A model generated the notes under the pieces. That model had not been told where the DNA came from. It saw nothing but the letters and a program-made list of their open reading frames with translations, and searched no databases. 64,000 bases of DNA, from assembly GCA_914767715.1 (NCBI GenBank), contig OU612066.1, positions 24,464,283 to 24,528,282 of the forward strand, in the 5' to 3' direction. Origin of the DNA: Membranipora membranacea (lineage: Eukaryota; Bryozoa; Gymnolaemata; Cheilostomatida; Membraniporidae). This document shows, piece by piece, positions 9,705 to 41,650 of this stretch. The position numbers and the translations under genes were made by a program. The stretch's first letter is position 1; every line of letters starts with the position of its first letter.

Positions 9705-9946
9705 CTGCAAAAGAAATTGAGATTACAATGAGGTTAGTAGGAGTAATGGATGGACAAAGGATTGCGTGTCAGAAGGAATGCAGAGCTGTGTATGTTAGTA
9801 TGACCATGAGTACCATAATTTAATATCAGATAAAGTTATCAATACAATTTAAAAAAGAATGAGAAAATACTTTATATTCGTTTTGAATGATGATTGACTT
9901 TCTGTGACTATAAGTTTGAGTGATCAACCAAGAGCTAAAAACTCAC

Positions 9947-12900
9947 TTGGCTCTGCGAAAGCAAACGGTGACTGTTGGTGAGGTGGAAGGGTATGGCGAG
10001 TGACGGTCTTGGTGATGTTGTGACAAACGACTGTCCCATCAGGTAATATGTGGTACTTTGATTCTGTTATGGAATGGCCACCAGGAACAACATTGGGAAC
10101 CTCATCAACTGTGAAAGTCATCCTAGCTGCAGAAGCATTCTCTTGTGCTGAATCGACCATGACATAGTCCGAGCCAGATGATGATCCTGATAAAACCATT
10201 GTTTGATCATCTTCGACAACAAAGACGCCATCGAGTTCATTCGTTAGGCTTTCCCCTTGGAAGTTGTCTTCTAGCTCAGAGGTTGGTGAGATTTCACTTG
10301 TTTCTATTTGTTCTTGAATTAGGAGTCGACCTGTACTGGAGTTTTGGTATCCACCAGAATGAAAATCAACTTCTGCAGGATCAGATACCAGTCTACGTTG
10401 ATAAAGATGCTGTGAGCCAAAGACAGTAGCATTGGAGTCTGATCGCTTTTCCATCGTGGGTTCAGCAACTGGTAAAGATTCAGAAGCAGCAGCAGTCAGT
10501 CGTGATTCAGCATCCAGGGAGTTTTCTTGTTGCGAGACTGTTTGAGTGCTGTACTCAATATTATCGCTGGTCGGCTCATATTCAGCACATCCAGAACTGG
10601 TTACTTTGAACTTACGGGATTGAAATCCAAGTTCAGAAGCTTCAGATACAAGTGAACGTTGGTAAATTTGCTGTGATTGAAGTACACTGGCATTTTGGTC
10701 TGATCGAACTTCCATGGCAGTTCCAGGCCTTAATTGTGGTTCAGCAACTGGTTGAGAACCAGTAAAATCAGAAGCAGTCAGTCGAGATTCAGCATCCAGG
10801 GAATTTTCTCGTTGCGAGACTGTTTGAGTGCTGTACTCAATATTATCGCTGGTCGGCTCATATTCAGCACATCCAGAACTGGTGACTTTGAACTTACGGG
10901 ATTGAAATCCAAGTTCAGAAGCTTCAGATACAAGTGAACGTTGGTAAATATGCTGTGATTGAAGTACACTGGCATTTTGGTCTGATCGAACTTCCATGGC
11001 AGTTCCAGGCCTTAATTGTGGTTCAGCAACTGGTTGAGAACCAGTAGAACCACAAACAGTCAGTCGAGATTCAGCGTCATGGGAATTTTCTCGCTGCGAC
11101 ACTGTTTGTGGGATGTACTCAATATTATCACTAGGTAGCTCATATTCAGCACGTCCAGAACTGATGACTTGGTAACGACGGGATTGAATTCCAACTTCGG
11201 CAGCATTAGATACTTGTGTATGTTGGTAAACATGCTGTGAGTCAAACATTGTAGAAATTAGCTCAACTTCAGACTCAGCATCAGCTGCAGATTCAGGCTG
11301 AGAGTTAAAAGCAATAACTGGTTCAGATTCAGAATGATGAGCAGCAGACAGCTCGGATTGTACATCCTTAGTCACATATTGCTGGATGGTTTCTTCTGTG
11401 ACTACATCTGACTCAGCATCGTTAACGGCTGGTGCAGATTCAGCTTCTTCTGTCAACTCTGGCTCGATTGCAGACTCCACAACTGGTTCAGTTTCAGTGT
11501 CACCTGCAGTGGGTTCGGAATGTACAGCCCCAGTGACATCTTGCTCGGTAGTTTCTTCAGTGACTAAATCAGACTCAGCATCATCAGCGGCTGGTGCAGA
11601 TTCAGCTTCTTCTTTCACCTCTGACTCTATGGTTGTTTCAGTGATATCATCAGAATCGGCATCATCAGCAGTTGGTGCAGATTCAGCTTCCACTGCAGTC
11701 TCAGCCACAGGGGCAGACTCTACAACTGCATCAGTTTCAGTATCATCTGCAGTGGGCTCAGAATGTACATCCTCAGTCACATCTTGCACGATGGTTTCTT
11801 CAGTGACTAAATCAGACTCAGCATCATCAGCGGCTGGTGCAGATTCCGCTTCTTCTGCAGCCTCAGGCAAGAGGGCAGACTCCACAATTGGTTCAATTTT
11901 CGTATCACCAGCAGTGGGCTCAGATTGTACAGCCTCAGTGACTTCCTGCTCGATGGTGTCTTCAGTGATTTCATCAGACTCAGCTTCATCTGTGGTTGGT
12001 GCAGATTTAGCTTCCTGCGTAGCCTGAGGCTGCAGGGCAGATTCCACAACTAGTTCAACCTCATTATCATCAGCAGTGGGCTCAGATCGTACACCATCAG
12101 TCACATCTTGCTCGATGGTTGCTTCAACGACTTCTGTTTCAGAAGCATCAACAGTTGGCTCTGATTCTTCAACAACTGTGACTTCCTCTTCCTGTACTGT
12201 TTCAGTGGTTTGATCAGACTCAGTATCTTCTGCGGTTGGTGCAGATTCAGCTTCCTCAGTAGCCTCAAGCTCGAGGGCAGACTCCACAACTGGTTCAACT
12301 TCAGTATCATCAGCAGTGGGCTCAGATTGTACAGCCTCAGTGACTTCCTGCTCAATGGTGTCTTCAGTGATTTGATCAGACTCAGCATCATCTGTGGTTG
12401 GTGCAGATTGAGCTTCTTCTTTCCCCTCTGACTCTATGGTTGTTTCAGTGATATCATCAGAATCGGCATCATCAGCAGTTGGGGCGGATTCAGCTTCCAC
12501 TGCAGTCTCAGCCACAGGGGCAGACTCTACAACTGCATCAGTTTCAGTATCATCTGCAGTGGGCTCGGAATGTACATCCTTAGTCACATCTTGCACGATG
12601 GTTTCTTCAGTGACTACATCAGACTCAGCATCATCAGCGGCTGGTGCAGATTCGGCTTCTTCTGCAGCCTCAGGCTCGAGGGCAGACGCCACAATTGGTT
12701 CAATTTTCATATCACCAGCAGTGGGCTCAGATTGTACAGCCTCAGTGACTTCCTGCTCGATGGTGTCTTCAGTGATTTCATCAGACTCAGCTTCATCTGT
12801 GGTTGGTGCAGATTTAGCTTCCTGCGTAGCCTGAGGCTCTAGGGCAGACTCCACAACTGGTTCAACCTCAGTATCATCAGCAGTGGGCTCAGATTGTACA

Positions 12901-15900
12901 GCCTCAGTGACTTCCTGCTCGATGGGGTCTACAGTGATTGCATCAGGCTCAGCATCATCTGCGGTTGGTGCAGATTCAGTTTCGTCTGTAGCTTCAGGCT
13001 CGAGGGCAGACTCCACAACTGGTTCAACCTCAGTATCATCAGCAGTGGGCTCAGATTGTACAGCCTCAGTGACTTCCTGCTCGCTGGTGTCTTCAGTGAT
13101 TTGATCAGACTCAGCATCATCTGCGGTTGGTGCAGATTCAGCTTCCTCTGTAGCCTCAGGCTCGAGGGCTGACTCCACAACTAGGTCAACCTCATTATCA
13201 TCAGCAGTGGGCTGAGATCGTACGCCATCAGTCACATCTTGCTCGATGGTTGCTTCAGCGACTTCTGTTTCAGAAGCATCAACAGTTGGCTCTGATTCTT
13301 CCTCAACTGTGACTTCCTCTTCCTGTACTGTTTCAGTGGTTTGATCAGACTCAGCATCATCTGCGGTTGGTGCAGACTCAGCTTCCTCGGTAGCCTCAGG
13401 CTCGAGGGCAGACTCCACAACTGGTTCAACTTCAGTATCATCAGCAGTGGGCTCAGATTGTAGAGCTTGAGTGACTTCCTGCTCAATGGTGTCTTCAGTG
13501 ATTTGATCAGACTCAGCATCATCTGTTGTTGGTGCGGATTCAGCTTCCTCTGTAGCCTCAGACTCGAGGGCAGACTCCATAACTGGTTCAACTTCAGTAT
13601 CATCGGCAGAGGGCTCGGATTGTACAGCCTCAGTGACTTCCTGCTCGATGGCGTCTTCAGTGATTTCATCACACTCAGCATCATCTATGGTTGGTGCAGA
13701 TTCGGCTTCCTCTGCAGCCTCAGGCTCTAGGGCAGACTCCACGACTGGTTCAACTTCAGTATCATCCGCAGTGGGCTCAGATTGTACAGCCTCAGTGACT
13801 TCCTGCTCGATGGCGTCTTCAGTGATTTCATCAGACTCAGCATCATCTATGTTTGGTGCAGATTCAGCTTCCTCTGCAGCCTCAGACTTGAGGGCAGACT
13901 CCACAACTGGTTCAACTTCAGTATCATCAGCAGTGGGCTCAGATTGTACAGCCTCCGTGACTTCCTGCTCGATGGCGTCTTCAGTGATTTCATCGGACTC
14001 AGCATCATCTATGGTTGGTGCAGATTCAGCTTCCTCTGCAGCCTCAGGCTCTAGGGCAGACTCCACAACTGGTTCAACATCAGTATCATCCGCAGTGGGC
14101 TCAGATTGTACAGCCTCAGTGACTTCCTGCTCGATGGCGTCTTCAGTGATTTCATCGGACTCAGCATCATCTATGGTCGGTGCAGATTCAGCTTCCTCTG
14201 CAGCCTCAGACTTGAGGGCAGACTCCACAACTGGTTCAACTTCAGGATCATCAGCAGTGGGCTCAGATTGAAGAGCTTCAGTGACTTCCTGCTCAATGGT
14301 GTCTTCAGTGATTTGATCAGACTCAGCATCATCTATGGTTGGTGCATATTCAGCTTCCTCTGCAGCCTCAGACTCGAGGGCAGACTCCACAACTGGTTCA
14401 ACTTCAGTATCATCAGCAGTGGGCTCAGATTGTACAGCTTCAGTGACTTCCTGCTCAATGGAGTCTTCAGTGATTTGATCAGACTCAGCATCATCTGCGG
14501 TTGGTGCAGAGTCAGCTTCCTCTGTAGCCTCAGGCTCGAGGGCAAACTCCACAACTAGTTCAACCTCAGAATCATCAGCAGTGGGCGCAGATTGTACAGC
14601 TTCAGTGACTTCCTGCTCAATGGTGTCTTCAGTGATTTGATCAGGCTCAGCATCATCTGCGGTTGGTGCAGATTCAGCATCCTCTGCAGCCTCAGACTCG
14701 AGGGCATACTCGATAACTGGTTCAACCTCAGTATCATCAGCAGTGGGCTCAGATTGTACAGCCTCAGTGACTTCCTGCTCGCTGGTGTCTTCAGTGATTT
14801 GATCAGACTCAGCATCATCTGCGGTTGGTGCAGATTCAGCTTCCTCTGTAGCCTCAGGCTCGAGGGCTGACTCCACAACTAGGTCAACCTCATTATCATC
14901 AGCAGTGGGCTCAGATCGTACGCCATCAGTCACATCTTGCTCGATGGTTGCTTCAGCGACTTCTGTTTCAGAAGCATCAACAGTTGGCTCTGATTCTTCC
15001 TCAACTGTGACTTCCTCTTCCTGTACTGTTTCAGTGGTTTGATCAGACTCAGCATCATCTGCGGTTGGTGCAGACTCAGCTTCCTCGGTAGCCTCAGGCT
15101 CGAGGGCAGACTCCACAACTGGTTCAACTTCAGTATCATCAGCAGTGGGCTCAGATTGTAGAGCTTGAGTGACTTCGTGCTCAATGGTGTCTTCAGTGAT
15201 TTGATCAGACTCAGCATCATCTGTTGTTGGTGCGGATTCAGCTTCCTCTGTAGCCTCAGACTCGAGGGCAGACTCCAAAACTGGTTCAACTTCAGTATCA
15301 TCGGCAGAGGGCTCGGATTGTACAGCCTCAGTGACTTCCTGCTCGATGGCGTCTTCAGTGATTTCATCACACTCAGCATCATCTATGGTTGGTGCAGATT
15401 CGGCTTCCTCTGCAGCCTCAGGCTCTAGGGCAGACTCCACGACTGGTTCAACTTCAGTATCATCCGCAGTGGGCTCAGATTGTACAGCCTCAGTGACTTC
15501 CTGCTCGATGGCGTCTTCAGTGATTTCATCAGGCTCAGCATCATCTATGTTTGGTGCAGATTCAGCTTCCTCTGCAGCCTCAGACTTGAGGGCAGACTCC
15601 ACAACTGGTTCAACTTCAGTATCATCAGCAGTGGGCTCAGATTGTACAGCCTCCGTGACTTCCTGCTCGATGGCGTCTTCAGTGATTTCATCGGACTCAG
15701 CATCATCTATGGTTGGTGCAGATTCAGCTTCCTCTGCAGCCTCAGGCTCTAGGGCAGACTCCACAACTGGTTCAACATCAGTATCATCCGCAGTGGGCTC
15801 AGATTGTACAGCCTCAGTGACTTCCTGCTCGATGGCGTCTTCAGTGATTTCATCGGACTCAGCATCATCTATGGTCGGTGCAGATTCAGCTTCCTCTGCA

Positions 15901-18900
15901 GCCTCAGACTTGAGGGCAGACTCCACAACTGGTTCAACTTCAGGATCATCAGCAGTGGGCTCAGATTGAAGAGCTTCAGTGACTTCCTGCTCAATGGTGT
16001 CTTCAGTGATTTCATCAGACTCAGCATCATCTATGGTTGGTGCATATTCAGCTTCCTCTGCAGCCTCAGTCTCGAGGGCAGACTCCACAACTGGTTCAAC
16101 TTCAGTATCATCAGCAGTGGGCTCAGATTGTACAGCTTCAGTGACTTCCTGCTCAATGGAGTCTTCAGTGATTTGATCAGGCTCAGCATCATCTGCGGTT
16201 GGTGCAGATTCAGCATCCTCTGCAGCCTCAGACTCGAGGGCATACTCGATAACTGGTTCAACATCAGTATCAAATGTAGCGGGCTCAGATTGTACAGCAT
16301 CAGTGACTTCCTGCTCGATGGTGTCTTCAGTGATTTGATGAGACTCAGCATCATCTGCGGTTGGTGCAGATTCAGCATCCTCTGTAGCCTCCGGCTCGAG
16401 GGCTGACTCCACAACTGGTCCAACTTCAGTATCATCGGCAGTGGGCTCAGACTGTACATCATCAATCACATCTTGCTCGATGGTGTCTTCAGTGACTTCT
16501 TCTATTTCAGAAGCAACAACAGTTGGCTCTGATTCTTCCTCAACTGTGACTTCCTCATCCTGCAGTGTTTCAGTGGTTTGATCAGACTCAGCATCATCTG
16601 CGGTTGGTGCAGATTCAGCTTCCTCTGTAGCCTCAGGCTCGAGGGCAGACTCCACAACTGGTTCAACTTCAGTATCATCAGCAGTGGGCTCAGATTGTAC
16701 AGCCTCAGTGACTTCCTGCTCAATGGTGTCTTCAGTGATTTGATCAGGCTCAGCGTCATATGCTGTTGGTGCAGATTCAGTTTCGTGTGTAGCCTCAGGC
16801 TCGAGGGCTAACTCCACAACTGGTTCAACTTCAGTATCATCGGCAGTGGGCTCAGATTGTACAGGCTCAGTGACTTCCTGCTCGATGGGGTCTTCAGTGA
16901 TTTGATCAGGCTCAGCATCATCTGCGGTTGGTGCAGATTCAGTTTCATCTGTAGCCACAGGCTCGAGGGCAGACTCCACAACTGGTTCAACTTCAGTATC
17001 ATCAACAGTGGGCTCAGATTGTACAGCCTCAGTGACGTCCTTCTCGATGGCGTCTTCAGTGATTTCATCAGACTCAGCATCATCTATGGTTGGTGCAGAT
17101 TCAGCTTCCTCTGCAGCCTCAGGCTCTAGGGCAGACTCCACAACTGGTTCAACCTCAGTATCATCAGCAGTGGGCTCAGATTGTACAGCCTTAGTGATTT
17201 CCTGCTCGATGGGGTCTACAGTGATTTGATCAGGCTCAGCATCATCTGCGGTTGGTGCAGATTCAGTTTCGTCTGTAGCCACAGGCTCGAGGGCAGACTC
17301 CACAACTGGTTCAACTTCAGTATCATCAGCAGTGGGCTCAGATTGTACAGCCTCAGTGACTTCCTGCTCAATGGTGTCTTCGGTGATTTGATCAGGCTCA
17401 GCGTCATATGCTGTTGGTGCAGATTCAGTTTCGTGTGTAGCCTCAGGCTCGAGGGCTAACTCCACGACTGGTTCAACTTCAGTATGATCGGCAGTGGGCT
17501 CAGATTGTACATCATCAGTCACATCTTGCTCGATGGTGTCTTCAGTGACTTCATCTATTTCAGAAGCAACAACAGTTGGCTCTGATTCTTCCTCAACTGT
17601 GACTTCCTCTTCCTGTACTGTTTCCGTGGTTTGATCAGGCTCAGCATCATCTATGGTTGGTGCAGATTCAGCTTCCTCTGCAGGCTCAGACTCGAGGGCA
17701 GACTCCACAACTGGTTCAACTTCAGTATCATCGGCAGTGGGCTCAGATTGTACAGCCTCAGTGACTTCCTTCTCGATGGTGTCTACAGTGATTTCATCAG
17801 ACTCAGCATCATCTATGGTTGGTGCATATTCAGCTTCCTCTGCAGCCTCAGACTCGAGGGCAGACTCCACAACTGGTTCAACTTCAGTATCACCAGCAGT
17901 GGGCTCAGATTGTACAGCTTCAGTGACTTCCTGCTCAATGGTGCCTTCAGTGATTTGATCAGACTCAGTATCATCTGTGGTTGGTGCAGGGTCAGCTTCC
18001 TCTGTAGCCTCAGGCTCGAGGGCAAACTCCACAACTGGTTCAACTTCAGTATCATCGGCAGTGGGCTCAGAATGCACAGCTTCAGTGACTTCCTGCTCAA
18101 TGGTGTCTTCAGTGATTTGATCAGGCTCAGCATCATCTGCGGTTGGTGCAGATTCAGTTTCGTCTGTAGCTTCAGGCTCGAGGGCAGACTCCACAACTGG
18201 TTCAACTTCAGTATCACCGGCAGTGGGCTCAGATTGTACATCATCAGTCACATCTTGCTCGATGGTGTCTTCAGTGACTTCATCTATTTCAGAAGCAACA
18301 ACAGCTGGCTCTGATTCTTCCTCAACTGTGACTTCCTCTTCCTGTCCTGTTTCAGTGGTTTGATCAGACTCAGCATCATCTGCGGTTGGTGCAGATTCAG
18401 CTTCCTCTGTAGCTTCAGGCTCGAGGGCAGACTCCACAACTGGTTCAACTTCATTATCATCGGCAGTGGGCTCAGATTGTACAGCCTCAGTGACTTCCTG
18501 CTCAATGGTGTCTTCAGTGATTTGATCAGACTCAGCATCATCTGCGGTTGGTGCAGATTCAGTTTCGTCTGTAGCTTCAGACTCGAGGGCAGAATCCACA
18601 ACTGGTTCAACTTCATTATCATCGGCAGTGGGCTCAGATTGTACAGCCTCAGTGACTTCCTGCTCAATGGTGTCTTCAGTGATTTGATCAGGCTCAGCAT
18701 CATCTGCGGTTGGTGCAGATTCAGTTTCGTCTGTAGCTTCAGACTCGAGGGCAGAATCCACAACTGGTTCAACTTCAGTATCATCGGCAGTGGGCTCAGA
18801 TTGTACAGCCTCAGTGACTTCCTTCTCGATGGTGTCTTCAGTGATTTCATCAGACTCAGCATCATCTATGGTTGGTGCATATTCAGCTTCCTCAGCAGCC

Positions 18901-21900
18901 TCAGACTCGAGGGCAGACTCCACAACTGGTTCAACTTCAGTATCACCAGCAGTGGGCTCAGATTGTACAGCTTCAGTGACTTCCTGCTCAATGGTGCCTT
19001 CAGTGATTTGATCAGACTCAGTATCATCTGTGGTTGGTGCAGGGTCAGCTTCCTCTGTAGCCTCAGGTTCGAGGGCAAACTCCACAACTGGTTCAACTTC
19101 AGTATCATCGGCAGTGGGCTCAGAATGCACAGCTTCAGTGACTTCCTGCTCGCTGGTGTCTTCAGTGATTTGATCAGACTCAGCATCATCTGCGGTTGGT
19201 GCAGATTCAGCTTCCTCTGTAGCCTCCGGCTCGAGGGCTGACTCCACAACTAGTTCAACTTCAGTATCATCGGCAGTGGGCTCACATTGTACATCATCAG
19301 TCACATCTTGCTCGATGGTGTCTTCAGTGACTTCATCTATTTCAGAAGCAACAACAGTTGGCTCTGATTCTTCCTCAACTGTGACTTCCTCTTCCTGTAC
19401 TGTTTCAGTGGTTTGATCAGACTCAGCATCGTCTGCGGTTGGTGCAGATTCAGCTTCCTCTGCAGGCTCAGACTCGAGGGCAGACTCCACAACTGGTTCA
19501 CCTTCAGTATCATCGGCAGTGGGCTCAGATTGTACAGCCTCAGTGACTTCCTTCTCGATGGCGTCTTCAGTGATTTCATCGGACTCAGCATCATCTATGG
19601 TTGGTGCAGATTCAGCTTCCTCTGCAGCCTCAGGCCCTAGGGCAGAGTCCACAACTGGTTCAACTTCATTATCATCGGCAGTGGGCTCAGATTGTACAGC
19701 CTCAGTGACTTCCTGTTCGATGGGGTCTTCAGTGATTTGATGAGGCTCAGCATCATCTGCGGTTGGTGCAGATTCAGTTTCGTCTGTAGCCACAGTCTCG
19801 AGGGCAGACTCCACAACTGGTTCAACTTCAGTATCATCAACAGTGGGCTCAGATTGTACAGCCTCAGTGACTTCCTGCTCAATGGTGTTTTCAGTGATTT
19901 CATCAGACTCAGCATCATCTATGGTTGGTGCAGATTCAGCTTCCTCTGCAGCCTCAGGCTCTAGGGCAGACTCCACAACTGGTTCAACCTCAGTATCATC
20001 AGCAGTGGGCTCCGATTGTACAGCCTCAGTGACTTTCTGCTCGATGGGGTCTTCAGTGATTTCATCAGACTCAGCATCATCTATGGTTGGTGCAGATTCA
20101 GCTTCCTCTGCAGCCTCAGGCTCATGGGCAGCCTCCACAACTGGTTCAACCTCAGTATCATCAGCAGTGGGCTCCGATTGTACAGGCTCAGTGACTTCCT
20201 GCTCGATGGCGTCTTCAGTGATTTCATCAGACTCAGCATCATCTATGGTTGGTGCAGATTCAACTTCCTCTGCAGCCTCAGGCTCTAGGGCAGCCTCCAC
20301 AACTGGTTCAACCTCAGTATCATCAGCAGTGGGCTCAGATTGTACAGGCTCAGTGAGTTCCTGCTCGATGGGGTCTTCAGTGATTTGATCAGGCTCAGCA
20401 TCATCTGCGGTGGGTGCAGATTCAGCTTCCTCTGCAGCCTCAGGCTCTAGGGCAGACTCCACAACTGGTTCAACCTCAGTATCATCAGCAGTGGGCTCAG
20501 ATTGTACAGCCTCAGTGACTTCCTGCTCGATGGGGTCTACAGTGATTTCATCAGGCTCAGCATCATCTGCGGTTGGTGCAGATTCAGTTTCGTCTGTAGC
20601 CACAGGCTCGAGGGCAGACTCCACAACTGGTTCAACTTCAGTATCATCAGCAGTGGGCTCAGATTGTACAGCCTCAGTGACTTCCTGCTCAATCGTGTCT
20701 TCAGTGATTTGATCAGGCTCAGCATCATCTGCTGTAGGTGCAGATTCAGTTTCGTGCGTAGCCTCAGGCTCGAGGGCTGACTCGACAACTGGTTCAACTT
20801 CAGTATCATGGGCAGTGGGCTCAGATTGTACATCATCAGTCACATCTTGCTCGATGGTGTCTTCAGTGACTTCATCTATTTCAGAAGCAACAACAGCTGG
20901 CTCTGATTCTTCCTCAACTGTGACTTCCTCTTCCTGTCCTGTTTCAGTGGTTTGATCAGACTCAGCATCATCTGCGGTTGGTGCAGATTCAGCTTCCTCT
21001 GTAGCTTCAGGCTCGAGGGCAGACTCCACAACTGGTTCAACTTCATTATCATCGGCAGTGGGCTCAGATTGTACAGCCTCAGTGACTTCCTGCTCAATGG
21101 TGTCTTCAGTGATTTGATCAGACTCAGCATCATCTGCGGTTGGTGCAGATACAGCTTCCTCTGCAGGCTCAGACTCGAGGGCAGACTCCACAACTGGTTC
21201 AACCTCAGTATCATCAGCAGTGGGCTCAGATTGTACAGCCTCAGTGACTTCCCGCTCGATGGCGTCTTCAGTGATTTCATCAGACTCAGCATCATCTATG
21301 GTTGGTGCAGATTCAGCTTCCTCTGCAGCCTCAGGCTCTAGGGCAGACTCCACAACTGGTTCAACCTCAGTATCATCAGCAGTGGGCTCCGATTGTACAG
21401 CCTCAGTGACTTCCTTCTCGATGGTGTCTTCAGTGATTTCATCAGACTCAGCATCATCTATGGTTGGTGCATATTCAGCTTCCTCTGCAGCCTCAGACTC
21501 GAGGGCAGACTCCACAACTGGTTCAACTTCAGTATCACCAGCAGTGGGCTCCGATTGTACAGGCTCAGTGACTTCCTGCTCGATGGCGTCTTCAGTGATT
21601 TCATCAGACTCAGCATCATCTATGGTTGGTGCAGATTCAACTTCCTCTGCAGCCTCAGGCTCTAGGGCAGCCTCCACAACTGGTTCAACCTCAGTATCAT
21701 CAGCAGTGGGCTCAGATTGTACAGGCTCAGTGAGTTCCTGCTCGATGGGGTCTTCAGTGATTTGATCAGGCTCAGCATCATCTGCGGTTGGTGCAGATTC
21801 AGTTTCATCTGTAGCCACAGGCTCTATGGCAGACTCCACAACTGGTTCAACTTCAGTATCATCGGCAGTGGGCTCAGATTGTACATCATCAGTCACATCT

Positions 21901-27900: not shown

Positions 27901-30900
27901 ATGAGGTCTTCAGTGATTTGATCTGGCTCAGCATCATCTGCGGTTGGTGCAGATTCAGTTTCATCTGTAGCCACAGGCTCGAGGGCAGACTCCACAACTG
28001 GTTCAACTTCAGTATCATCAACAGTGGGCTCAGATTGTAAAGCCTCAGTGACTTCCTGCTCAATGGTGTCTTCAGTGATTTCATCAGACTCAGCATCATC
28101 TATGGTTGGTGCAGATTCAGCTTCCTCTGCAGCCTCAGGCTCTAGGGCAGACTCCACAACTGGTTCAACCTCAGTATCATCAGCAGTGGGCTCAGATTGT
28201 ACAGCCTCAGTGACTTTCTGCTCGATGGGGTCTTCAGTGATTTCATCAGACTCAGCATCATCTATGGTTGGTGCAGATTCAGCTTCCTCTGCAGCCTCAG
28301 GCTCTAGGGCAGACTCCACAACTGGTTCAACCTCAGTATCATCAGCAGTGGGCTCAGATTGTACAGCCTCAGTGACTTCCTGCTCGATGGGGTCTACAGT
28401 GATTTCATCAGGCTCAGCATCATCTGCGGTTGGTGCAGATTCAGTTTCGTCTGTAGCCACAGGCTCGAGGGCAGACTCCACAACTGGTTCAACTTCAGTA
28501 TCATCAGCAGTGGGCTCAGATTGTACAGGCTCAGTGACTTCCTGCTCGATGAGGTCTTCAGTGATTTGATCAGGCTCAGCATCATCTGCGGTTGGTGCAG
28601 ATTCAGTTTCACCTGTAGCCACAGGCTCGAGGGCAGACTCCACAACTGGTTCAACTTCAGTATCATCAACAGGGGGCTCAGATTGTACAGCCTCAGTGAC
28701 TTCCTGCTCAATGGTGTCTTCAGTGATTTCATCAGACTCAGCATCATCTATGGTTGGTGCATATTCAGCTTCCTCTGCAGCCTCAGGCTCTAGGGCAGAC
28801 TCCACCACTGGTTCAACCTCAGTATCATCAGCAGTGGGCTCAGATTGTACAGCCTCAGTGACTTTCTGCTCGATGGGGTCTTCAGTGATTTCATCAGACT
28901 CAGCATCATCTATGGTTGGTGCAGATTCAGCTTTCTCTGCAGCCTCAGGCTCTAGGGCAGACTCCATAACTGGCTCAACCTCAGTATCATCAGCAGTGGG
29001 CTCAGATTGTACAGCCTCAGTGACTTCCTGCTCAATGGTGTCTTCAGTGATTTCATCAGACTCAGCATCATCTATGGTTGGTGCAGATTCAGCTTCCTCT
29101 GCAGCCTCAGGCTCTAGGGCAGACTCCACAACTGGTTCAACCTCAGTATCATCAGCAGTGGGCTCAGATTGTACAGCCTCAGTGACTTTCTGCTCGATGG
29201 GGTCTTCCGTGATTTCATCAGACTCAGCATCATCTATGGTTGGTGCAGATTCAGCTTCCTCTGCAGCCTCAGGCTCTAGGGCAGACTCCACAACTGGTTC
29301 AACTTCAGTATCATCGGCAGTGGGCTCAGATTGTACATCATCAGTCACATCTTGCTCGATGGTGTCTTCAGTGACTTCATCTATTTCAGAAGCAACAACA
29401 GTTGGCTCTGATTCTTCCTCAACTGTGACTTCCTCTTCCTGTCCTGTTTCAGTGGTTTGATCAGACTCAGCATCATCTGCGGTTGGTGCAGATTCAGCTT
29501 CCTCTGTAGCTTCAGGCTCGAGGGCAGACTCCACAACTGGTTCAACTTCATTATCATCGGCAGTGGGCTCAGATTGTACAGCCTCAGTGACTTCCTGCTC
29601 AATGGTGTCTTCAGTGATTTGATCAGACTCAGCATCGTCTGCGGTTGGTGCAGATTCAGCTTCCTCTGCAGGCTCAGACTCGAGGGCAGACTCAACAACT
29701 GGTTCACCTTCAGTATCATCGGCAGTGGGCTCAGATTGTACAGCCTCAGTGACTTCCTTCTCGATGGCGTCTTCAGTGATTTCATCGGACTCAGCATCAT
29801 CTATGGTTGGTGCAGATTCAGCTTCCTCTGCAGCCTCAGGCCCTAGGGCAGACTCCACAACTGGTTCAACTTCATTATCATCGGCAGTGGGCTCAGATTG
29901 TACAGCCTCAGTGACTTCCTGTTCGATGGGGTCTTCAGTGATTTGATCAGGCTCAGCATCATATGCGGTTGGTGCAGATTCAGTTTCGTCTGTAGCCACA
30001 GGCTCGAGGGCAGACTCCACAACTGGTTCAACCTCAGTATCATCAGCAGTGGGCTCAGATTGTACAGGCTCAGTGACTTCCTGCTCGATGAGGTCTTCAG
30101 TGATTTGATCTGGCTCAGCATCATCTGCGGTTGGTGCAGATTCAGTTTCATCTGTAGCCACAGGCTCGAGGGCAGACTCCACAACTGGTTCAACTTCAGT
30201 ATCATCAACAGTGGGCTCAGATTGTACAGCCTCAGTGACTTCCTGCTCAATGGTGTCTTCAGTGATTTCATCAGACTCAGCATCATCTATGGTTGGTGCA
30301 GATTCAGCTTCCTCTGCAGCCTCAGGCTCTAGGGCAGACTCCACAACTGGTTCAACCTCAGTATCATCAGCAGTGGGCTCGGATTGTACAGCCTCAGTGA
30401 CTTTCTGCTCGATTGGGTCTTCAGTGATTTCATCAGACTCAGCATCATCTATGGTTGGTGCAGATTCAGCTTCCTCTGCAGCCTCAGGCTCTAGGGCAGA
30501 CTCCACAACTGTTTCAACCTCAGTATCATCAGCAGTGGGCTCAGATTGTACAGCCTCAGTGACTTCCTGCTCGATGGGGTCTACAGTGATTTCATCAGGC
30601 TCAGCATCATCTGCGGTTGGTGCAGATTCAGTTTCGTCTGTAGCCACAGGCTCGAGGGCAGACTCCACAACTGGTTCAACTTCAGTATCATCAGCAGTGG
30701 GCTCAGATTGTACAGCCTCAGTGACTTCCTGCTCAATGGTGTCTTCAGTGATTTGATCATGCTCAGCGTCATATGCTGTTGGTGCAGATTCAGTTTCGTG
30801 TGTAGCCTCAGGCTCGAGGGCTAACTCCACAACTGGTTCAACTTCAGTATCATCGGCAGTGGGCTCAGATTGTACATCATCAGTCACATCTTGCTCGATG

Positions 30901-33900
30901 GTGTCTTCAGTGACTTCATCTATTTCAGAATCAACAACAGTTGGCTCTGATCCTTCCTCAACTGTGACTTCCTCTTCCTGTACTGTTTCAGTGGTTTGAT
31001 CAGGCTCAGCATCATCTATGGTTGGTGCAGATTCAGCTTCCTCTGCAGCCTCAGGCTCTACGGCAGACTCCACAACTGGTTCAACCTCAGTATCATCAGC
31101 AGTGGGCTCAGATGGTACAGCCTCAGTGACTTCCTGCTCGATGGGGTCTTCAGTGATTTGATCAGGCTCAGCATCATCTGCGGTTGGTGCAGATTCAGTT
31201 TCGTCTGTAGCCACAGGCTCGAGGGCAGACTCCACAACTGGTTCAACTTCAGTATCATCAGCAGTGGGCTCAGATTGTACAGCCTCAGTGACTTCCTGCT
31301 CAATCGTGTCTTCAGTGATTTGATCAGGCTCAGCGTCATCTGATGTAGGTGCAGATTCAGTTTCGTGTGTAGCCTCAGGCTCGAGGGCTGACTCCACAAC
31401 TGGTTCAACTTCAGTATCATCGGCAGTGGGCTCAGATTGTACATCATCAGTCACATCTTGCTCGATGGTGTCTTCAGTGACTTCATCTATTTCAGAAGCA
31501 ACAACAGTTGGCTCTGATTCTTCCTCAACTGTGACTTCCTCTTTCTGTCCTGTTTCAGTGGTTTGATCAGACTCAGCATCATCTGCGGTTGGTGCAGATT
31601 CAGCTTCCTCTGTAGCTTCAGGCTCGAGGGCAGACTCCACAACTGGTTCAACTTCATTATCATCGGCAGTGGGCTCAGATTGTACAGCCTCAGTGACTTC
31701 CTGCTCAATGGTGTCTTCAGTGATTTGATCAGACTCAGCATCATCTGCGGTTGGTGCAGATTCAGCTTCCTCTGCAGGCTCAGACTCGAGGGCAGACTCC
31801 ACAACTGGTTCAACTTCAGTATCATCGGCAGTGGGCTCAGATTGTACAGCCTCAGTGACTTCCTTCTCGATGGTGTCTTCAGTGATTTCATCAGACTCAG
31901 CATCATCTATGGTTGGTGCATATTCAGCTTCCTCTGCAGCCTCAGACTCGAGGGCAGACTCCACAACTGGTTCAACTTCAGTATCATCAGCAGTGGGCTC
32001 AGATTGTACAGCTTCAGTGACTTCCTGCTCAATGGTGCCTTCAGTGATTTGATCAGACTCAGTATCATCTGTGGTTGGTGCAGGGTCAGCTTCCTCTGTA
32101 GCCTCAGGCTCGAGGGCAAACTCCACAACTGGCTCAACTTCAGTATCATCGGCAGTGGGCTCAGAATGCACAGCTTCAGTGGCTTCCTGCTCAATGGTGT
32201 CTTCAGTGATTTGATCAGGCTCAGCATCATCTGCGGTTGGTGCAGATTCAGTTTCGTCTGTAGCTTCAGGCTCGAGGGCAGACTCCACAACTGGTTCAAC
32301 CTCAGTATCATCAGCAGTGGGCTCAGATTGTACAGCCTCAGTGACTTCCTGCTCGCTGGTGTCTTCAGTGATTTGATCAGACTCAGCATCATCTGCGGTT
32401 GGTGCAGATTCAGCTTCCTCTGTAGCCTCCGGCTCGAGGGCTGACTCCACAACTGGTTCAACTTCAGTATCATCGGCAGTGGGCTCAGATTGTACATCAT
32501 CAGTCACATCTTGCTCGATGGTGTCTTCAGTGACTTCATCTATTTCAGAAGCAACAACAGTTGGCTCTGATTCTTCCTCAACTGTGACTTCCTCTTCCTG
32601 TACTGTTTCAGTGGTTTGATCAGACTCAGCATCATCTGCGGTTGGTGCAGATTCAGCTTCCTCTGTAGCTTCAGGCTCGAGGGCAGACTCCACAACTGGT
32701 TCAACTTCATTATCATCAGCAGTGGGCTCAGATTGTACAGCCTCAGTGACTTCCTGCTCGATGGGGTCTTCAGTGATTTCATCAGACTCAGCATCATCTA
32801 TGGTTGGTGCAGATTCAGCTTCCTCTGCAGCCTCAGGCTCTAGGGCAGACTCCACAACTGGTTCAACTTCAGTATCATCGGCAGTGGGCTCAGATTGTAC
32901 AGCCTCAGTGACTTCCTGCTCAATGGTGTCTTCAGTGATTTGATCATGCTCAGCGTCATATGCTGTTGGTGCAGATTCAGTTTCGTGTGTAGCCTCAGGC
33001 TCGAGGGCTAACTCCACAACTGGTTCAACTTCAGTATCATCGGCAGTGGGCTCAGATTGTACATCATCAGTCACATCTTGCTCGATGGTGTCTTCAGTGA
33101 CTTCATCTATTTCAGAATCAACAACAGTTGGCTCTGATTCTTCCTCAACTGTGACTTCCTCTTCCTGTACTGTTTCAGTGGTTTGATCAGGCTCAGCATC
33201 ATCTATGGTTGGTGCAGATTCAGCTTCCTCTGCAGCCTCAGGCTCTACGGCAGACTCCACAACTGGTTCAACCTCAGTATCATCAGCAGTGGGCTCAGAT
33301 GGTACAGCCTCAGTGACTTCCTGCTCGATGGGGTCTTCAGTGATTTGATCAGGCTCAGCATCATCTGCGGTTGGTGCAGATTCAGTTTCGTCTGTAGCCA
33401 CAGGCTCGAGGGCAGACTCCACAACTGGTTCAACTTCAGTATCATCAGCAGTGGGCTCAGATTGTACAGCCTCAGTGACTTCCTGCTCAATCGTGTCTTC
33501 AGTGATTTGATCAGGCTCAGCGTCATCTGATGTAGGTGCAGATTCAGTTTCGTGTGTAGCCTCAGGCTCGAGGGCTGACTCCACAACTGGTTCAACTTCA
33601 GTATCATCGGCAGTGGGCTCAGATTGTACATCATCAGTCACATCTTGCTCGATGGTGTCTTCAGTGACTTCATCTATTTCAGAAGCAACAACAGTTGGCT
33701 CTGATTCTTCCTCAACTGTGACTTCCTCTTTCTGTCCTGTTTCAGTGGTTTGATCAGACTCAGCATCATCTGCGGTTGGTGCAGATTCAGCTTCCTCTGT
33801 AGCTTCAGGCTCGAGGGCAGACTCCACAACTGGTTCAACTTCATTATCATCGGCAGTGGGCTCAGATTGTACAGCCTCAGTGACTTCCTGCTCAATGGTG

Positions 33901-36900
33901 TCTTCAGTGATTTGATCAGACTCAGCATCATCTGCGGTTGGTGCAGATTCAGCTTCCTCTGCAGGCTCAGACTCGAGGGCAGACTCCACAACTGGTTCAA
34001 CTTCAGTATCATCGGCAGTGGGCTCAGATTGTACAGCCTCAGTGACTTCCTGCTCGATGGTGTCTTCAGTGATTTCATCAGACTCAGCATCATCTATGGT
34101 TGGTGCAGATTCAGCTTCCTCTGCAGCCTCAGGCTCTAGGGCAGACTCCACAACTGGTTCAACCTCAGTATCATCAGCAGTGGGCTCAGATTGTACAGCC
34201 TCAGTGACTTTCTGCTCGATGGGGTCTTCCGTGATTTCATCAGACTCAGCATCATCTATGGTTGGTGCAGATTCAGCTTCCTCTGCAGCCTCAGGCTCTA
34301 GGGCAGACTCCACAACTGGTTCAACTTCAGTATCATCGGCAGTGGGCTCAGATTGTACATCATCAGTCACATCTTGCTCGATGGTGTCTTCAGTGACTTC
34401 ATCTATTTCAGAAGCAACAACAGTTGGCTCTGATTCTTCCTCAACTGTGACTTCCTCTTCCTGTCCTGTTTCAGTGGTTTGATCAGACTCAGCATCATCT
34501 GCGGTTGGTGCAGATTCAGCTTCCTCTGTAGCTTCAGGCTCGAGGGCAGACTCCACAACTGGTTCAACTTCATTATCATCGGCAGTGGGCTCAGATTGTA
34601 CAGCCTCAGTGACTTCCTGCTCAATGGTGTCTTCAGTGATTTGATCAGACTCAGCATCGTCTGCGGTTGGTGCAGATTCAGCTTCCTCTGCAGGCTCAGA
34701 CTCGAGGGCAGACTCAACAACTGGTTCACCTTCAGTATCATCGGCAGTGGGCTCAGATTGTACAGCCTCAGTGACTTCCTTCTCGATGGCGTCTTCAGTG
34801 ATTTCATCGGACTCAGCATCATCTATGGTTGGTGCAGATTCAGCTTCCTCTGCAGCCTCAGGCCCTAGGGCAGACTCCACAACTGGTTCAACTTCATTAT
34901 CATCGGCAGTGGGCTCAGATTGTACAGCCTCAGTGACTTCCTGTTCGATGGGGTCTTCAGTGATTTGATCAGGCTCAGCATCATATGCGGTTGGTGCAGA
35001 TTCAGTTTCGTCTGTAGCCACAGGCTCGAGGGCAGACTCCACAACTGGTTCAACCTCAGTATCATCAGCAGTGGGCTCAGATTGTACAGGCTCAGTGACT
35101 TCCTGCTCGATGAGGTCTTCAGTGATTTGATCTGGCTCAGCATCATCTGCGGTTGGTGCAGATTCAGTTTCATCTGTAGCCACAGGCTCGAGGGCAGACT
35201 CCACAACTGGTTCAACTTCAGTATCATCAACAGTGGGCTCAGATTGTACAGCCTCAGTGACTTCCTGCTCAATGGTGTCTTCAGTGATTTCATCAGACTC
35301 AGCATCATCTATGGTTGGTGCAGATTCAGCTTCCTCTGCAGCCTCAGGCTCTAGGGCAGACTCCACAACTGGTTCAACCTCAGTATCATCAGCAGTGGGC
35401 TCGGATTGTACAGCCTCAGTGACTTTCTGCTCGATTGGGTCTTCAGTGATTTCATCAGACTCAGCATCATCTATGGTTGGTGCAGATTCAGCTTCCTCTG
35501 CAGCCTCAGGCTCTAGGGCAGACTCCACAACTGGTTCAACCTCAGTATCATCAGCAGTGGGCTCAGATTGTACAGCCTCAGTGACTTCCTGCTCGATGGG
35601 GTCTACAGTGATTTCATCAGGCTCAGCATCATCTGCGGTTGGTGCAGATTCAGTTTCGTCTGTAGCCACAGGCTCGAGGGCAGACTCCACAACTGGTTCA
35701 ACTTCAGTATCATCAGCAGTGGGCTCAGATTGTACAGCCTCAGTGACTTCCTGCTCAATGGTGTCTTCAGTGATTTGATCATGCTCAGCGTCATATGCTG
35801 TTGGTGCAGATTCAGTTTCGTGTGTAGCCTCAGGCTCGAGGGCTAACTCCACAACTGGTTCAACTTCAGTATCATCGGCAGTGGGCTCAGATTGTACATC
35901 ATCAGTCACATCTTGCTCGATGGTGTCTTCAGTGACTTCATCTATTTCAGAATCAACAACAGTTGGCTCTGATTCTTCCTCAACTGTGACTTCCTCTTCC
36001 TGTACTGTTTCAGTGGTTTGATCAGGCTCAGCATCATCTATGGTTGGTGCAGATTCAGCTTCCTCTGCAGCCTCAGGCTCTACGGCAGACTCCACAACTG
36101 GTTCAACCTCAGTATCATCAGCAGTGGGCTCAGATGGTACAGCCTCAGTGACTTCCTGCTCGATGGGGTCTTCAGTGATTTGATCAGGCTCAGCATCATC
36201 TGCGGTTGGTGCAGATTCAGTTTCGTCTGTAGCCACAGGCTCGAGGGCAGACTCCACAACTGGTTCAACTTCAGTATCATCAGCAGTGGGCTCAGATTGT
36301 ACAGCCTCAGTGACTTCCTGCTCAATCGTGTCTTCAGTGATTTGATCAGGCTCAGCGTCATCTGATGTAGGTGCAGATTCAGTTTCGTGTGTAGCCTCAG
36401 GCTCGAGGGCTGACTCCACAACTGGTTCAACTTCAGTATCATCGGCAGTGGGCTCAGATTGTACATCATCAGTCACATCTTGCTCGATGGTGTCTTCAGT
36501 GACTTCATCTATTTCAGAAGCAACAACAGTTGGCTCTGATTCTTCCTCAACTGTGACTTCCTCTTTCTGTCCTGTTTCAGTGGTTTGATCAGACTCAGCA
36601 TCATCTGCGGTTGGTGCAGATTCAGCTTCCTCTGTAGCTTCAGGCTCGAGGGCAGACTCCACAACTGGTTCAACTTCATTATCATCGGCAGTGGGCTCAG
36701 ATTGTACAGCCTCAGTGACTTCCTGCTCAATGGTGTCTTCAGTGATTTGATCAGACTCAGCATCATCTGCGGTTGGTGCAGATTCAGCTTCCTCTGCAGG
36801 CTCAGACTCGAGGGCAGACTCCACAACTGGTTCAACTTCAGTATCATCGGCAGTGGGCTCAGATTGTACAGCCTCAGTGACTTCCTTCTCGATGGTGTCT

Positions 36901-39900
36901 TCAGTGATTTCATCAGACTCAGCATCATCTATGGTTGGTGCATATTCAGCTTCCTCTGCAGCCTCAGACTCGAGGGCAGACTCCACAACTGGTTCAACTT
37001 CAGTATCATCAGCAGTGGGCTCAGATTGTACAGCTTCAGTGACTTCCTGCTCAATGGTGCCTTCAGTGATTTGATCAGACTCAGTATCATCTGTGGTTGG
37101 TGCAGGGTCAGCTTCCTCTGTAGCCTCAGGCTCGAGGGCAAACTCCACAACTGGTTCAACTTCAGTATCATCGGCAGTGGGCTCAGAATGCACAGCTTCA
37201 GTGACTTCCTGCTCAATGGTGTCTTCAGTGATTTGATCAGGCTCAGCATCATCTGCGGTTGGTGCAGATTCAGTTTCGTCTGTAGCTTCAGGCTCGAGGG
37301 CAGACTCCACAACTGGTTCAACCTCAGTATCATCAGCAGTGGGCTCAGATTGTACAGCCTCAGTGACTTCCTGCTCGCTGGTGTCTTCAGTGATTTGATC
37401 AGACTCAGCATCATCTGCGGTTGGTGCAGATTCAGCTTCCTCTGTAGCCTCCGGCTCGAGGGCTGACTCCACAACTTGTTCAACTTCAGTATCATCGGCA
37501 GTGGGCTCAGATTGTACATCATCAGTCACATCTTGCTCGATGGTGTCTTCAGTGACTTCATCTATTTCAGAAGCAACAACAGTTGGCTCTGATTCTTCCT
37601 CAACTGTGACTTCCTCTTCCTGTACTGTTTCAGTGGTTTGATCAGACTCAGCATCATCTGCGGTTGGTGCAGATTCAGCTTCCTCTGTAGCTTCAGGCTC
37701 GAGGGCAGACTCCACAACTGGTTCAACTTCATTATCATCAGCAGTGGGCTCAGATTGTACAGCCTCAGTGACTTCCTGCTCGATGGGGTCTTCAGTGATT
37801 TCATCAGACTCAGCATCATCTATGGTTGGTGCAGATTCAGCTTCCTCTGCAGCCTCAGGCTCTAGGGCAGACTCCACAACTGGTTCAACTTCAGTATCAT
37901 CGGCAGTGGGCTCAGATTGTACAGCCTCAGTGACTTCCTGCTCAATGGTGTCTTCAGTGATTTGATCATGCTCAGCGTCATATGCTGTTGGTGCAGATTC
38001 AGTTTCGTGTGTAGCCTCAGGCTCGAGGGCTAACTCCACAACTGGTTCAACTTCAGTATCATCGGCAGTGGGCTCAGATTGTACATCATCAGTCACATCT
38101 TGCTCGATGGTGTCTTCAGTGACTTCATCTATTTCAGAATCAACAACAGTTGGCTCTGATTCTTCCTCAACTGTGACTTCCTCTTCCTGTACTGTTTCAG
38201 TGGTTTGATCAGGATCAGCATCATCTATGGTTGGTGCAGATTCAGCTTCCTCTGCAGCCTCAGGCTCTACGGCAGACTCCACAACTGGTTCAACCTCAGT
38301 ATCATCAGCAGTGGGCTCAGATGGTACAGCCTCAGTGACTTCCTGCTCGATGGGGTCTTCAGTGATTTGATCAGGCTCAGCATCATCTGCGGTTGGTGCA
38401 GATTCAGTTTCGTCTGTAGCCACAGGCTCGAGGGCAGACTCCACAACTGGTTCAACTTCAGTATCATCAGCAGTGGGCTCAGATTGTACAGCCTCAGTGA
38501 CTTCCTGCTCAATCGTGTCTTCAGTGATTTGATCAGGCTCAGCGTCATCTGATGTAGGTGCAGATTCAGTTTCGTGTGTAGCCTCAGGCTCGAGGGCTGA
38601 CTCCACAACTGGTTCAACTTCAGTATCATCGGCAGTGGGCTCAGATTGTACATCATCAGTCACATCTTGCTCGATGGTGTCTTCAGTGACTTCATCTATT
38701 TCAGAAGCAACAACAGTTGGCTCTGATTCTTCCTCAACTGTGACTTCCTCTTTCTGTCCTGTTTCAGTGGTTTGATCAGACTCAGCATCATCTGCGGTTG
38801 GTGCAGATTCAGCTTCCTCTGTAGCTTCAGGCTCGAGGGCAGACTCCACAACTGGTTCAACTTCATTATCATCGGCAGTGGGCTCAGATTGTACAGCCTC
38901 AGTGACTTCCTGCTCAATGGTGTCTTCAGTGATTTGATCAGACTCAGCATCATCTGCGGTTGGTGCAGATTCAGCTTCCTCTGCAGGCTCAGACTCGAGG
39001 GCAGACTCCACAACTGGTTCAACTTCAGTATCATCGGCAGTTGGCTCAGATTGTACAGCCTCAGTGACTTCCTTCTCGATGGTGTCTTCAGTGATTTCAT
39101 CAGACTCAGCATCATCTATGGTTGGTGCATATTCAGCTTCCTCTGCAGCCTCAGACTCGAGGGCAGACTCCACAACTGGTTCAACTTCAGTATCATCAGC
39201 AGTGGGCTCAGATTGTACAGCTTCAGTGACTTCCTGCTCAATGGTGCCTTCAGTGATTTGATCAGACTCAGTATCATCTGTGGTTGGTGCAGGGTCAGCT
39301 TCCTCTGTAGCCTCAGGCTCGAGGGCAAACTCCACAACTGGTTCAACTTCAGTATCATCGGCAGTGGGCTCAGAATGCACAGCTTCAGTGACTTCCTGCT
39401 CAATGGTGTCTTCAGTGATTTGATCAGGCTCAGCATCATCTGCGGTTGGTCCAGATTCAGTTTCGTCTGTAGCCACAGGCTCGAGGGCAGACTCCACAAC
39501 TGGTTCAACTTCAGTATCATCAGCAGTGGGCTCAGATTGTACAGCCTCAGTGACTTCCTGCTCAATCGTGTCTTCAGTGATTTGATCAGGCTCAGCGTCA
39601 TCTGCTGTAGGTGCAGATTCAGTTTCGTGTGTAGCCTCAGGCTCGAGGGCTGACTCCACAACTGGTTCAACTTCAGTATCATCGGCAGTGGGCTCAGATT
39701 GTACATCATCAGTCACATCTTGCTCGATGGTGTCTTCAGTGACTTCATCTATTTCAGAAGCAACAACAGATGGCTCTGATTCTTCCTCAACTGTGACTTC
39801 CTCTTCCTGTCCTGTTTCAGTGGTTTGATCAGACTCAGCATCATCTGCGGTTGGTGCAGATTCAGCTTCTTCTGTAGCTTCAGGCTCGAGGGCAGACTCC

Positions 39901-41650
39901 ACAACTGGTTCAACTTCATTATCATCAGCAGTGGGCTCAGATTGTACAGCCTCAGTGACTTCCTGCTCAATGGTGTCTTCAGTGATTTGATCAGACTCAG
40001 CATCATCTGCGGTTGGTGCAGATTCATCTTCCTCTGCAGGCTCAGACTCGAGGGCAGACTCCACAACTGGTTCAACTTCAGTATCATCGGCAGTGGGCTC
40101 AGATTGTACATCATCAGTCACATCTTGCTCGATGGTGTCTTCAGTGACTTCATCTATTTCAGAAGCAACAACAGTTGGCTCTGATTCTTCCTCAACTGTG
40201 ACTTCCTCTTCCTGTCCTGTTTCAGCGGTTTGATCAGACTCAGCATCATCTGCGGTTGGTGCAGATTCAGCTTCCTCTGCAGGCTCAGACTCGAGGGCAG
40301 ACTCCACAACTGGTTCAACTTCAGTATCATCGGCAGTGGGCTCAGATTGTACATCATCAGTCACATCTTGCTCGATGGTGTCTTCAGTGACTTCATCTAT
40401 TTCAGAAGCAACAACAGTTGGCTCTGATTCTTCCTCAACTGTGACTTCCTCTTCCTGTCCTGTTTCAGCGGTTTGATCAGACTCAGCATCATCTGCGGTT
40501 GGTGCAGATTCAGCTTCCTCTGCAGGCTCAGACTCGAGGGCAGACTCCACAACTGGTTCAACTTCAGTATCATCGGCAGTGGGCTCAGATTGTACATCAT
40601 CAGTCACATCTTGCTCGATGGTGTCTTCAGTGACTTCATCTATTTCAGAAGCAACAACAGTTGGCTCTGATTCTTCCTCAACTGTGACTTCCTCTCCCTG
40701 TCCTGTTTCAGTGGTTTGATCAGACTCAGCATCATCTGCGGTTGGTGCAGATTCAGCTTCCTCTGTAGCTTCAGGCTCGAGGGCAGACTCCACAACTGGT
40801 TCAACTTCATTATCATCGGCAGTGGGCTCAGATTGTACAGCCTCAGTGACTTCCTGCTCAATGGTGTCTTCAGTGATTTGATCAGACTCAGCATCATCTG
40901 CGGTTGGTGCAGATTCAGCTTCCTCTGCAGGCTCAGGCTCGAGGGCAGACTCCACAACTGGTTCAACTTTAGTATCATCGGCAGTGGGCTCAGATTGTAC
41001 AGCTTCAGTGACTTCTTGCTCAATGGTGTATTCAGTGATTTGATCAGGCTCAGCATCATCTGCGGTTGGTGCAGATTCAGCTTCTTCTGTGAACACAGGC
41101 TCCACAGTCGGATAACATATCGGCTCAGATTCATTATCGTCAAGAGGACAATTTGAAGCTGACTCGGACAAAGTGTGCTCTATGGAGGTGTGATAAGTTA
41201 TGTCAGATTCGCATGTGGTGGCACCAAGTTCGTCTGTGCCAGGGACAGAATAGTTAGTGTTTTGTTCATGTTCATATTCCTGTAAAAGTTCTGAAGTATG
41301 TTGAATACCAGAACTTGGATCAGTTGTTGAAGCACTAGTATTCTCCGAAAGAGATGAGTGAGAGATGAAATTAGCAGATAGTGTTGTAGATGGGTCCTCA
41401 CCGATCCCATAGGATACGAAATTAGACTTGTAGAGAGTGGTCTGTTCATCCCGATAAATGGTCTCTTCTTGCATGTCATTAGAATTAGAATCTAGTTTCT
41501 TCATTGCGTTTATTTCAACTTGTTCATCTACGTTTAAGCTCACTGTTTGTTGAAACTCACTACTATGTATGGCAACAGAACTGCTACACATAATATCCGC
41601 AGTTGCATCATTTTCATCCATATTCGAGCTAGGAACCTCATCCACTCGAA
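9947..41650 (-). CDS. Giant ankyrin exon, 31.7 kb, 27-residue acidic repeat array
   Basis: One uninterrupted reading frame of about 10,568 codons runs from a CTGCAG acceptor (41650) to a GTGAGT donor (9947), phase 1 on both sides. Its parts are a Ser/Thr-rich unique start of about 170 residues, roughly 9,950 residues of tandem acidic repeats, a segment with a 94-residue repeat (about 11255-10330), and a unique end with DYVMVDSAQENAS and ILPDGTVVCHNITKT. The last motif resembles the ankyrin C-terminal DEQGN-VTKKI region. Giant exons after the death domain are known in vertebrate ankyrin-B/G and in Drosophila Ank2, and C. elegans UNC-44 has a Ser/Thr/Glu/Pro-rich repeat tail, so the position fits. 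Predicted function: an extended polyanionic spacer on a spectrin-bound ankyrin, probably neuronal (inference). Stops are absent across the whole length, which argues for selection on the frame. Confidence 0.95.
10330..11255 (-). repeat. 94-residue repeat at the end of the giant exon
   Basis: Three to four copies of a 94-residue (282-bp) unit carry SQ-[IV]YQ---VS-A-E-G-QSR, SSG-AEYE--SDNIEY, QTVSQ-EN and PVAEPQLRPGTAMEVRSD. The last two full copies are almost identical (282-bp spacing between 10699 and 10981). The unit is less acidic than the main array and contains aromatic and basic residues, so it is a separate repeat family. Confidence 0.88.
13200..16450 (-). repeat. 1,698-bp higher-order repeat, two copies
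   Basis: Blocks starting near 13.23 and 14.93 kb are nearly identical at an offset of 1,698 bp, that is 21 x 81 minus 3. The missing codon comes from a 26-residue half-unit (SEPTVDASETEVAEATIEQD) in each block. This marks the two blocks as one duplication event. Confidence 0.75.
29000..39090 (-). repeat. 5,022-bp tandem duplication inside the array
   Basis: About 29.0-34.05 kb matches about 34.02-39.09 kb at an offset of 5,022 bp, which is 62 x 81. Rare variants are shared at the offset, for example TCTGGCTCAG near 30108 and 35130, and GATTGGGTCT near 30411 and 35433. The few differences include a Thr/Pro change near 30512 versus 35534. The low divergence implies a recent duplication or conversion. 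Confidence 0.85.

Follow-up and report, generated by a model that had tools for sequence, protein, structure and literature searches.

Can one uninterrupted coding exon of 31.7 kb sit inside an animal ankyrin gene, and what would such an exon encode? The question is raised by a window of 64,000 nucleotides from the bryozoan Membranipora membranacea (the whole stretch analysed: assembly GCA_914767715.1, contig OU612066.1, forward-strand positions 24,464,283 to 24,528,282; coordinates below count from its first letter), in which the minus strand is open from 41650 to 9947. As far as can be judged from the DNA, this segment is confirmed as one coding exon of an ankyrin gene. We consider it likely that it is a long cassette exon placed after the death domain of a giant ankyrin, and that it encodes a disordered, polyanionic spacer. 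The exon and the parts of its product are as follows.

9947..41650, minus strand: giant exon, presumably a cassette; 31,704 nt, phase 1-1, 10,567 full codons.
41076..41650, minus strand: unique N-terminal part; 191 residues, with a degenerate piece resembling an array unit at its end; the first ATG of the frame is at 41621.
11277..41075, minus strand: array; 368 units of 27 aa (81 bp), 9,933 residues, comprising 168 A, 143 B, 28 D and 25 C units, three C-like units of 26 aa and one degenerate last unit.
33956..39246, minus strand: recent tandem duplication; in windows of 162 bp, at least 95% identical to the array sequence lying 5,022 bp further on.
9949..11276, minus strand: non-array tail; 443 residues, with a 282-bp repeat and the motif ILPDGTVV..ITKT, common to the next exon.

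The length of the segment is divisible by three, and one minus-strand frame contains no stops, as against 213 and 2,226 in the other two; the stop-to-stop open reading frame (ORF) on this strand is 9924..41675 (10,583 aa). An AG stands before 41650 and a GT after 9947, with phase 1 on both sides. The remaining parts of the ankyrin gene in the window lie to either side.

57923..59519, minus strand: ZU5 domain exons; Pfam recognises the first ZU5, split over two exons, and the second is assigned only by similarity to ankyrins in PDB.
55690..56505, minus strand: UPA domain exons; PF17809 UPA_2, two exons, E 1.5e-21 and 1.1e-22.
52909..53738, minus strand: death-domain exons and the following phase 1-1 exon; Pfam PF00531 at 53409-53738.
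46856..51042, minus strand: eight exons 3' of the death domain, each phase 1-1; they form four pairs of a helical-looking exon with DPR[R/H]G and, after it, an acidic exon.
43361..43441, minus strand: exon preceding the giant exon; 81 nt, phase 1-1.
8608..9704, minus strand: exon after the giant exon; phase 1 acceptor, 364 residues, TAG stop; carries EILPDGTVVTRKITKT.

The assignment to an ankyrin is supported by the domains. The first ZU5 was detected by Pfam at 59271-59519 (E 3.6e-21) and 58822-59064 (E 1.2e-06), and its exon matched chains of Ankyrin-2, -1 and -3 and nothing else in PDB at E <= 0.001. For the second ZU5 exon Pfam was silent and PDB gave an Ankyrin-2 match (E 1.3e-24), while the death domain (E 3.6e-07 by Pfam) matched only Ankyrin-1 in PDB (E 4.7e-04). 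The N-terminal ankyrin repeats would sit past position 64000, outside the window. From 51042 to 41650 there are ten consecutive exons, all of phase 1-1 and divisible by three, the giant exon being the tenth. The earlier note had claimed about 10,568 stop-free codons, which agrees with our count of full codons without a stop in the exon frame, and in-frame joining to ankyrin exons on both sides. The latter holds as well: the spliced run 51042..8608, whose exons were placed by us, has no internal stop whether the giant exon is kept (11,511 letters, final stop counted) or skipped (943). The exon at 52461/52462-52256, as placed, has a phase 0 donor that clashes with the next acceptor of phase 1, and was omitted from the spliced run. 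A full isoform of about 12,500 residues was also proposed, close to our hand sum of 12,505, in which 1,573 upstream residues are based on approximate exon ends.

The same frame could be read as a separate intronless gene within an ankyrin intron that starts on its own at 41621 and stops at 9924: the exon has an in-frame ATG 29 bases from its beginning, and the frame closes 20 bases past the donor. This is very improbable, because phase-1 splice sites at both ends align the segment with the nine phase 1-1 exons that precede it, and because the motif in its tail is common to the next ankyrin exon (15/27 identical, E 3.5e-6 in BLAST within an 18-sequence set). Position and composition also match those of published ankyrin long exons (PMC5135030). 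In that survey (Jegla, 2016), long exons are given for 23 of 36 bilaterian ankyrins, with a mean length of 8,103 bp (standard deviation 4,850, n=30) and repeats of 5 to >160 copies of 36-228 bp. These exons are biased in composition, with Ser+Glu at ~25% and S/E/T/D/K/P at >55%, and in protostomes and echinoderms they lie 3' of the death domain (PMC5135030). In the Membranipora gene, a ZU5-ZU5-UPA core upstream and a death domain accompany an open exon of >3 kb downstream of the UPA domain, and the death domain (53409-53738) and the giant exon (41650-9947) are on the same strand. Ser+Glu amounts to 31.7% of the exon product and S+E+T+D+K+P to 63.2%, yet K is scarce and A and V are high (E 24.2, A 12.8, T 11.9, D 11.3, V 10.2, P 7.7, S 7.5, K 0.5 and R 0.3%). 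For an ankyrin gene, a giant exon is thus not unexpected, and the one described here is an extreme and unusually regular member of the known giant-ankyrin class.

Its length is about four times the mean ankyrin long-exon length in the survey (PMC5135030), and it may be the longest ankyrin exon described. Among the closest counterparts by description is Drosophila Ank2-XL, likewise an invertebrate giant ankyrin with a long exon after the death domain and a product that is mostly a tandem array. Its repeat region, of 93 units of 76 aa (a core of 21.2 kb), has been postulated to be a spacer (PMC5135030), whereas the array described here has ~368 units of 27 aa. The Ank2-XL protein has a mass of ~1,200 kDa and controls presynaptic microtubules together with Futsch (PMC6703079), whereas the Membranipora exon alone encodes 1,128 kDa. 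At ~110 Da per residue, 1,200 kDa corresponds to ~10,900 residues in total, and the Ank2-XL exon is therefore probably shorter than the giant exon of Membranipora. The Ciona intestinalis ankyrin also has a single giant in-frame exon (13,344 bp, with PCR-supported junctions; PMC5135030), but this lies before the death domain and has less than half the length. The giant cassette exons in the tails of vertebrate ANK3 and ANK2 (7.8 kb in ANK3; PMC5135030, PMC10901741) likewise precede the death domain, and AnkG is without a repeat array. The giant isoform of C. elegans unc-44 is of the after-death-domain type, and UNC-44 is described as anchoring microtubules to the cortex via UNC-119 and UNC-33 (PMC7159925).

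Human mucins such as MUC12 and MUC4 also have variable number tandem repeat exons, in which protein-coding repeats make up one very large exon, and in several mucins the units are more degenerate at the array edges (PMC13345508), as at the C-terminal edge here. Mucins are extracellular glycoproteins, however, and unrelated in sequence and role. The earlier note had set the giant exon beside MUC16 and TTN (about 22 and 17 kb), taken as the largest human coding exons, and had counted it among the longest known. 'Among the longest' is fair, but the ranking by these two genes is not supported: longer MUC12 alleles are given in a preprint, including a haplotype of 23,080 aa with the largest human exon (PMC13345508). 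Drosophila Muc14A has been described in an older paper as approaching MUC16 in length (PMC2515642). A literature search for the longest coding exon turned up no paper that ranks such exons over the animals, and an overall record for the giant exon is not established.

The array is strictly ordered. With the short units counted as C, 140 of the 168 A units precede a B and the other 28 a D, D is always followed by C (28/28) and C always by A (28/28), the only departures from simple alternation being two BB and the last unit. The 364 typed units are exactly 27 aa long, and the length of the degenerate last unit was set to 27 by us. Units at the N-terminal end carry 1.6 differing residues each relative to the type consensus, a figure that rises to 5.4 over the 23 units closing the array at its C-terminal end; because divergence climbs in this direction, the array seems youngest at its N-terminal side. 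The near-identical blocks in the array bear on a further explanation, namely that the array is real and its assembled length wrong, 5-kb tandem blocks having been duplicated or collapsed. A stretch of 5,291 bp is at least 95% identical at a lag of 5,022 (99.94% over 1,620 bp), exact repeats reach 1,477 bp, and 49% of the exon lies in exact repeats of at least 300 bp. The window contains no N, the frame is open across every repeat junction, and most copies appear diverged enough to be placed by reads longer than ~11 kb, so that we hold a wrong length to be improbable. The near-identical 5-kb tandem duplication nevertheless leaves the exact copy number of the array uncertain.

The openness of such an array derives in part from a few founder units, and a fair test of its coding status is therefore provided by the changes among copies. 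For each unit type and codon, every distinct codon was linked to a commoner one a single base off, giving 227 changes (15 codon variants at a distance of more than one base were excluded); the unit types are treated as alignments without a tree, and the tests are approximate. No stop was found among these changes, as against 8.6 expected with equal weights (Poisson P 1.8e-4) or 6.8 with transitions weighted 4 (Poisson P 1.1e-3). Changes were most frequent at third codon positions (96, compared with 80 at first and 51 at second positions; p 0.001), and all changes in unit length were of whole codons, including one in-frame codon loss common to three units. These results bear on the idea of an untranslated, satellite-like array that is open by chance. 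Weak amino-acid constraint among copies would suit such an array, but the lack of stops and the restriction to whole-codon length changes make it scarcely credible; the third-position excess points the same way, though CpG avoidance could also cause it. With the transition weight set to 0.97, its estimate from four-fold sites, omega was 0.72, with a synonymous excess at p 0.024. Glycine gains fell below expectation solely at a transition weight of 4 (11 vs 22.3, p 0.008).

The encoded array is strongly acidic, with 3,648 D+E and 53 K+R among its 9,933 residues, or about -0.36 charge per residue. An AlphaFold prediction of eight units gave a mean pLDDT of 49.4 and a pTM of 0.09, and no secondary structure was assigned. 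With assumed scaling exponents of 0.588 to 0.70, the computed mean end-to-end distance is ~120 to 345 nm, for a contour length of 3.6 um. Of the 1,904 S/T residues in the array, 704 stand in an S/T-x-x-E/D context, which is the consensus of casein kinase 2.

Within the same giant ankyrin exon, the array could instead act as a multivalent binding strip for microtubules or other partners, as reported for the repeat region of Ank2-XL. The strict 27-residue register and the unit order would suit regular binding sites. The surfaces of microtubules are acidic, and the charge of the array argues that direct microtubule binding is unlikely; amino-acid constraint among copies is weak, and the giant exon contains no S/T-x-I-P motif, the EB-binding motif. 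We therefore judge a binding strip unlikely, and prefer the disordered spacer of a giant ankyrin. As the exon has phase 1 at both ends, its skipping would yield an ordinary ankyrin and its inclusion would add ~10,570 residues. The exon would be included in mRNA and the giant isoform presumably used in neurons, where the ankyrin core would be seated on membrane proteins and spectrin. The array would then be a long, self-repelling chain reaching inward, which may fix how far microtubules and other structures stand from the membrane, and specific contacts would be made by the less acidic C-terminal parts, namely the tail and the following exons. Owing to the near-lack of basic residues, we predict that the array itself is unlikely to grip microtubules, unlike what has been reported for Ank2-XL. 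Unequal exchange would adjust the length of the array, while selection would maintain the open frame and would maintain the sequence only weakly.

Several points weigh against the spacer. The repeat region of Ank2-XL has been reported to be essential for microtubule interaction (PMC6703079), and axon diameter needs only a fraction of that region (PMC5135030), neither of which is predicted by a pure length-spacer. Without a deep alignment (the input consisted of 34 array segments), the AlphaFold result is weak evidence of disorder. Amino-acid constraint among the copies is weak: at a transition weight of 4, omega rises to 0.93 and the synonymous excess is lost (p 0.61). Conservation of charge among copies was not significant in any of three weightings (12 K/R gains vs 12.4-19.0 expected, 44 D/E losses vs 48.7-54.8 expected; charge loss p 0.08-0.44), and because of this the acidity of the array may be inherited rather than maintained. 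The acceptor and donor of the giant exon, claimed in the earlier note to be clean and both of phase 1, have the claimed phases but are clean only on a generous reading, the donor having the lowest score of 19 and the acceptor the second lowest of 14. These scores come from home-made matrices built on 19 donors and 14 acceptors of the same gene, chosen by eye and including those of the giant exon. The low-scoring splice ends fit regulated inclusion, yet they are the main caution at the level of sequence.

Inside the exon, signals that would interrupt it are few. Sites scoring at least the median of the real sites of the gene number two donors and one acceptor in 31.7 kb, whereas the 22.3 kb upstream hold 35 and 31, a count that includes real sites used in training. 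AATAAA occurs once and ATTAAA not at all, and runs of five T are absent from the giant exon. The sole strong acceptor-like site (score 11.6) is at 41279, in the unique N-terminal part, and a shorter form of the exon via this acceptor is possible. SAFB proteins, whose targets have >33% A, are described as repressors of the giant cassette exons in ANK3 and ANK2 (PMC10901741). SAFB-type regulation was considered and set aside, as the giant exon has 29.3% A, under the published value; as a purine-rich enhancer motif, GAAGAA occurs 1.26 times per kb in the exon and 0.81 times per kb in the upstream 22.3 kb. A 31.7-kb internal exon with few cryptic splice or poly(A) signals and low-scoring flanking splice sites is a hard case for splicing and translation.

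Giant ankyrin tails matter for axon organisation, but they diverge too fast to tell what is kept. Here, 368 paralogous copies in one exon form an internal record, with no stops, strict unit order and near-neutral amino-acid change, and this record makes the idea that giant-ankyrin spacers are selected for length and frame, not sequence, directly testable. Taken further, and only tentatively, the array could be a length-coded polyanionic brush, in which frame and length would be selected and the sequence hardly at all. Such a brush would be built by an A-B or A-D-C grammar, recently lengthened on its N-terminal side by 5-kb and 2.2-kb steps, and would work by repulsion and entropy, not by microtubule binding. 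Array length would then vary between individuals, tuning the distance from membrane to microtubule or the calibre of the axon.

The search for relatives of the array gave little. A derivation from the acidic exons 50019-46856, which look alike by eye (SAPP, EPxxDD), was rejected on finding no BLAST match between them and the array in a set of 18 pieces, one of which (48831-48664) stood in the wrong frame. Weak BLAST matches linked the array to the N-terminal part of its own exon (E 3.6e-4 and 0.04) and to the tail (30% over 125, E 5.8e-7); the latter may be due to composition. The array had no match among PDB sequences at E up to 0.01, an array segment had none in NCBIfam (the tail and next exon gave only weak matches below the cut-off there), and 39003-41675 had none in Pfam. 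In GTDB contigs, 94 stretches fit a peptide pattern and none is a proven relative, as expected for an animal protein.

Further features were observed in the exon and around it. CpG obs/exp is 0.31 in the giant exon, lower than in the flanks (0.51 and 0.50) and in other exons of the gene (0.58), and NCG codons are rare; germline methylation is one possible cause of the low CpG. The tail contains two LC8-like TQT motifs and, at 10459-11240, a second tandem repeat unrelated to the array (282 bp, 2.8 copies, 90% matches). On the 3' side of the TAG at 8608, an acidic, Ser-rich ORF of 543 aa without a Pfam match and two short acidic candidate exons occupy 1955-3586 and 5514-6790 on the minus strand; these may be alternative 3' exons of the ankyrin gene or belong to another gene. 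The eight exons at 46856-51042 represent a two-exon cassette in four tandem copies, with the motif exon DPR[R/H]G...ALL.F..DL.AA at 45, 75 and 43% identity to the second copy. An intronic tandem repeat of 51 bp, in 2.7 copies, is found at 46521-46659.

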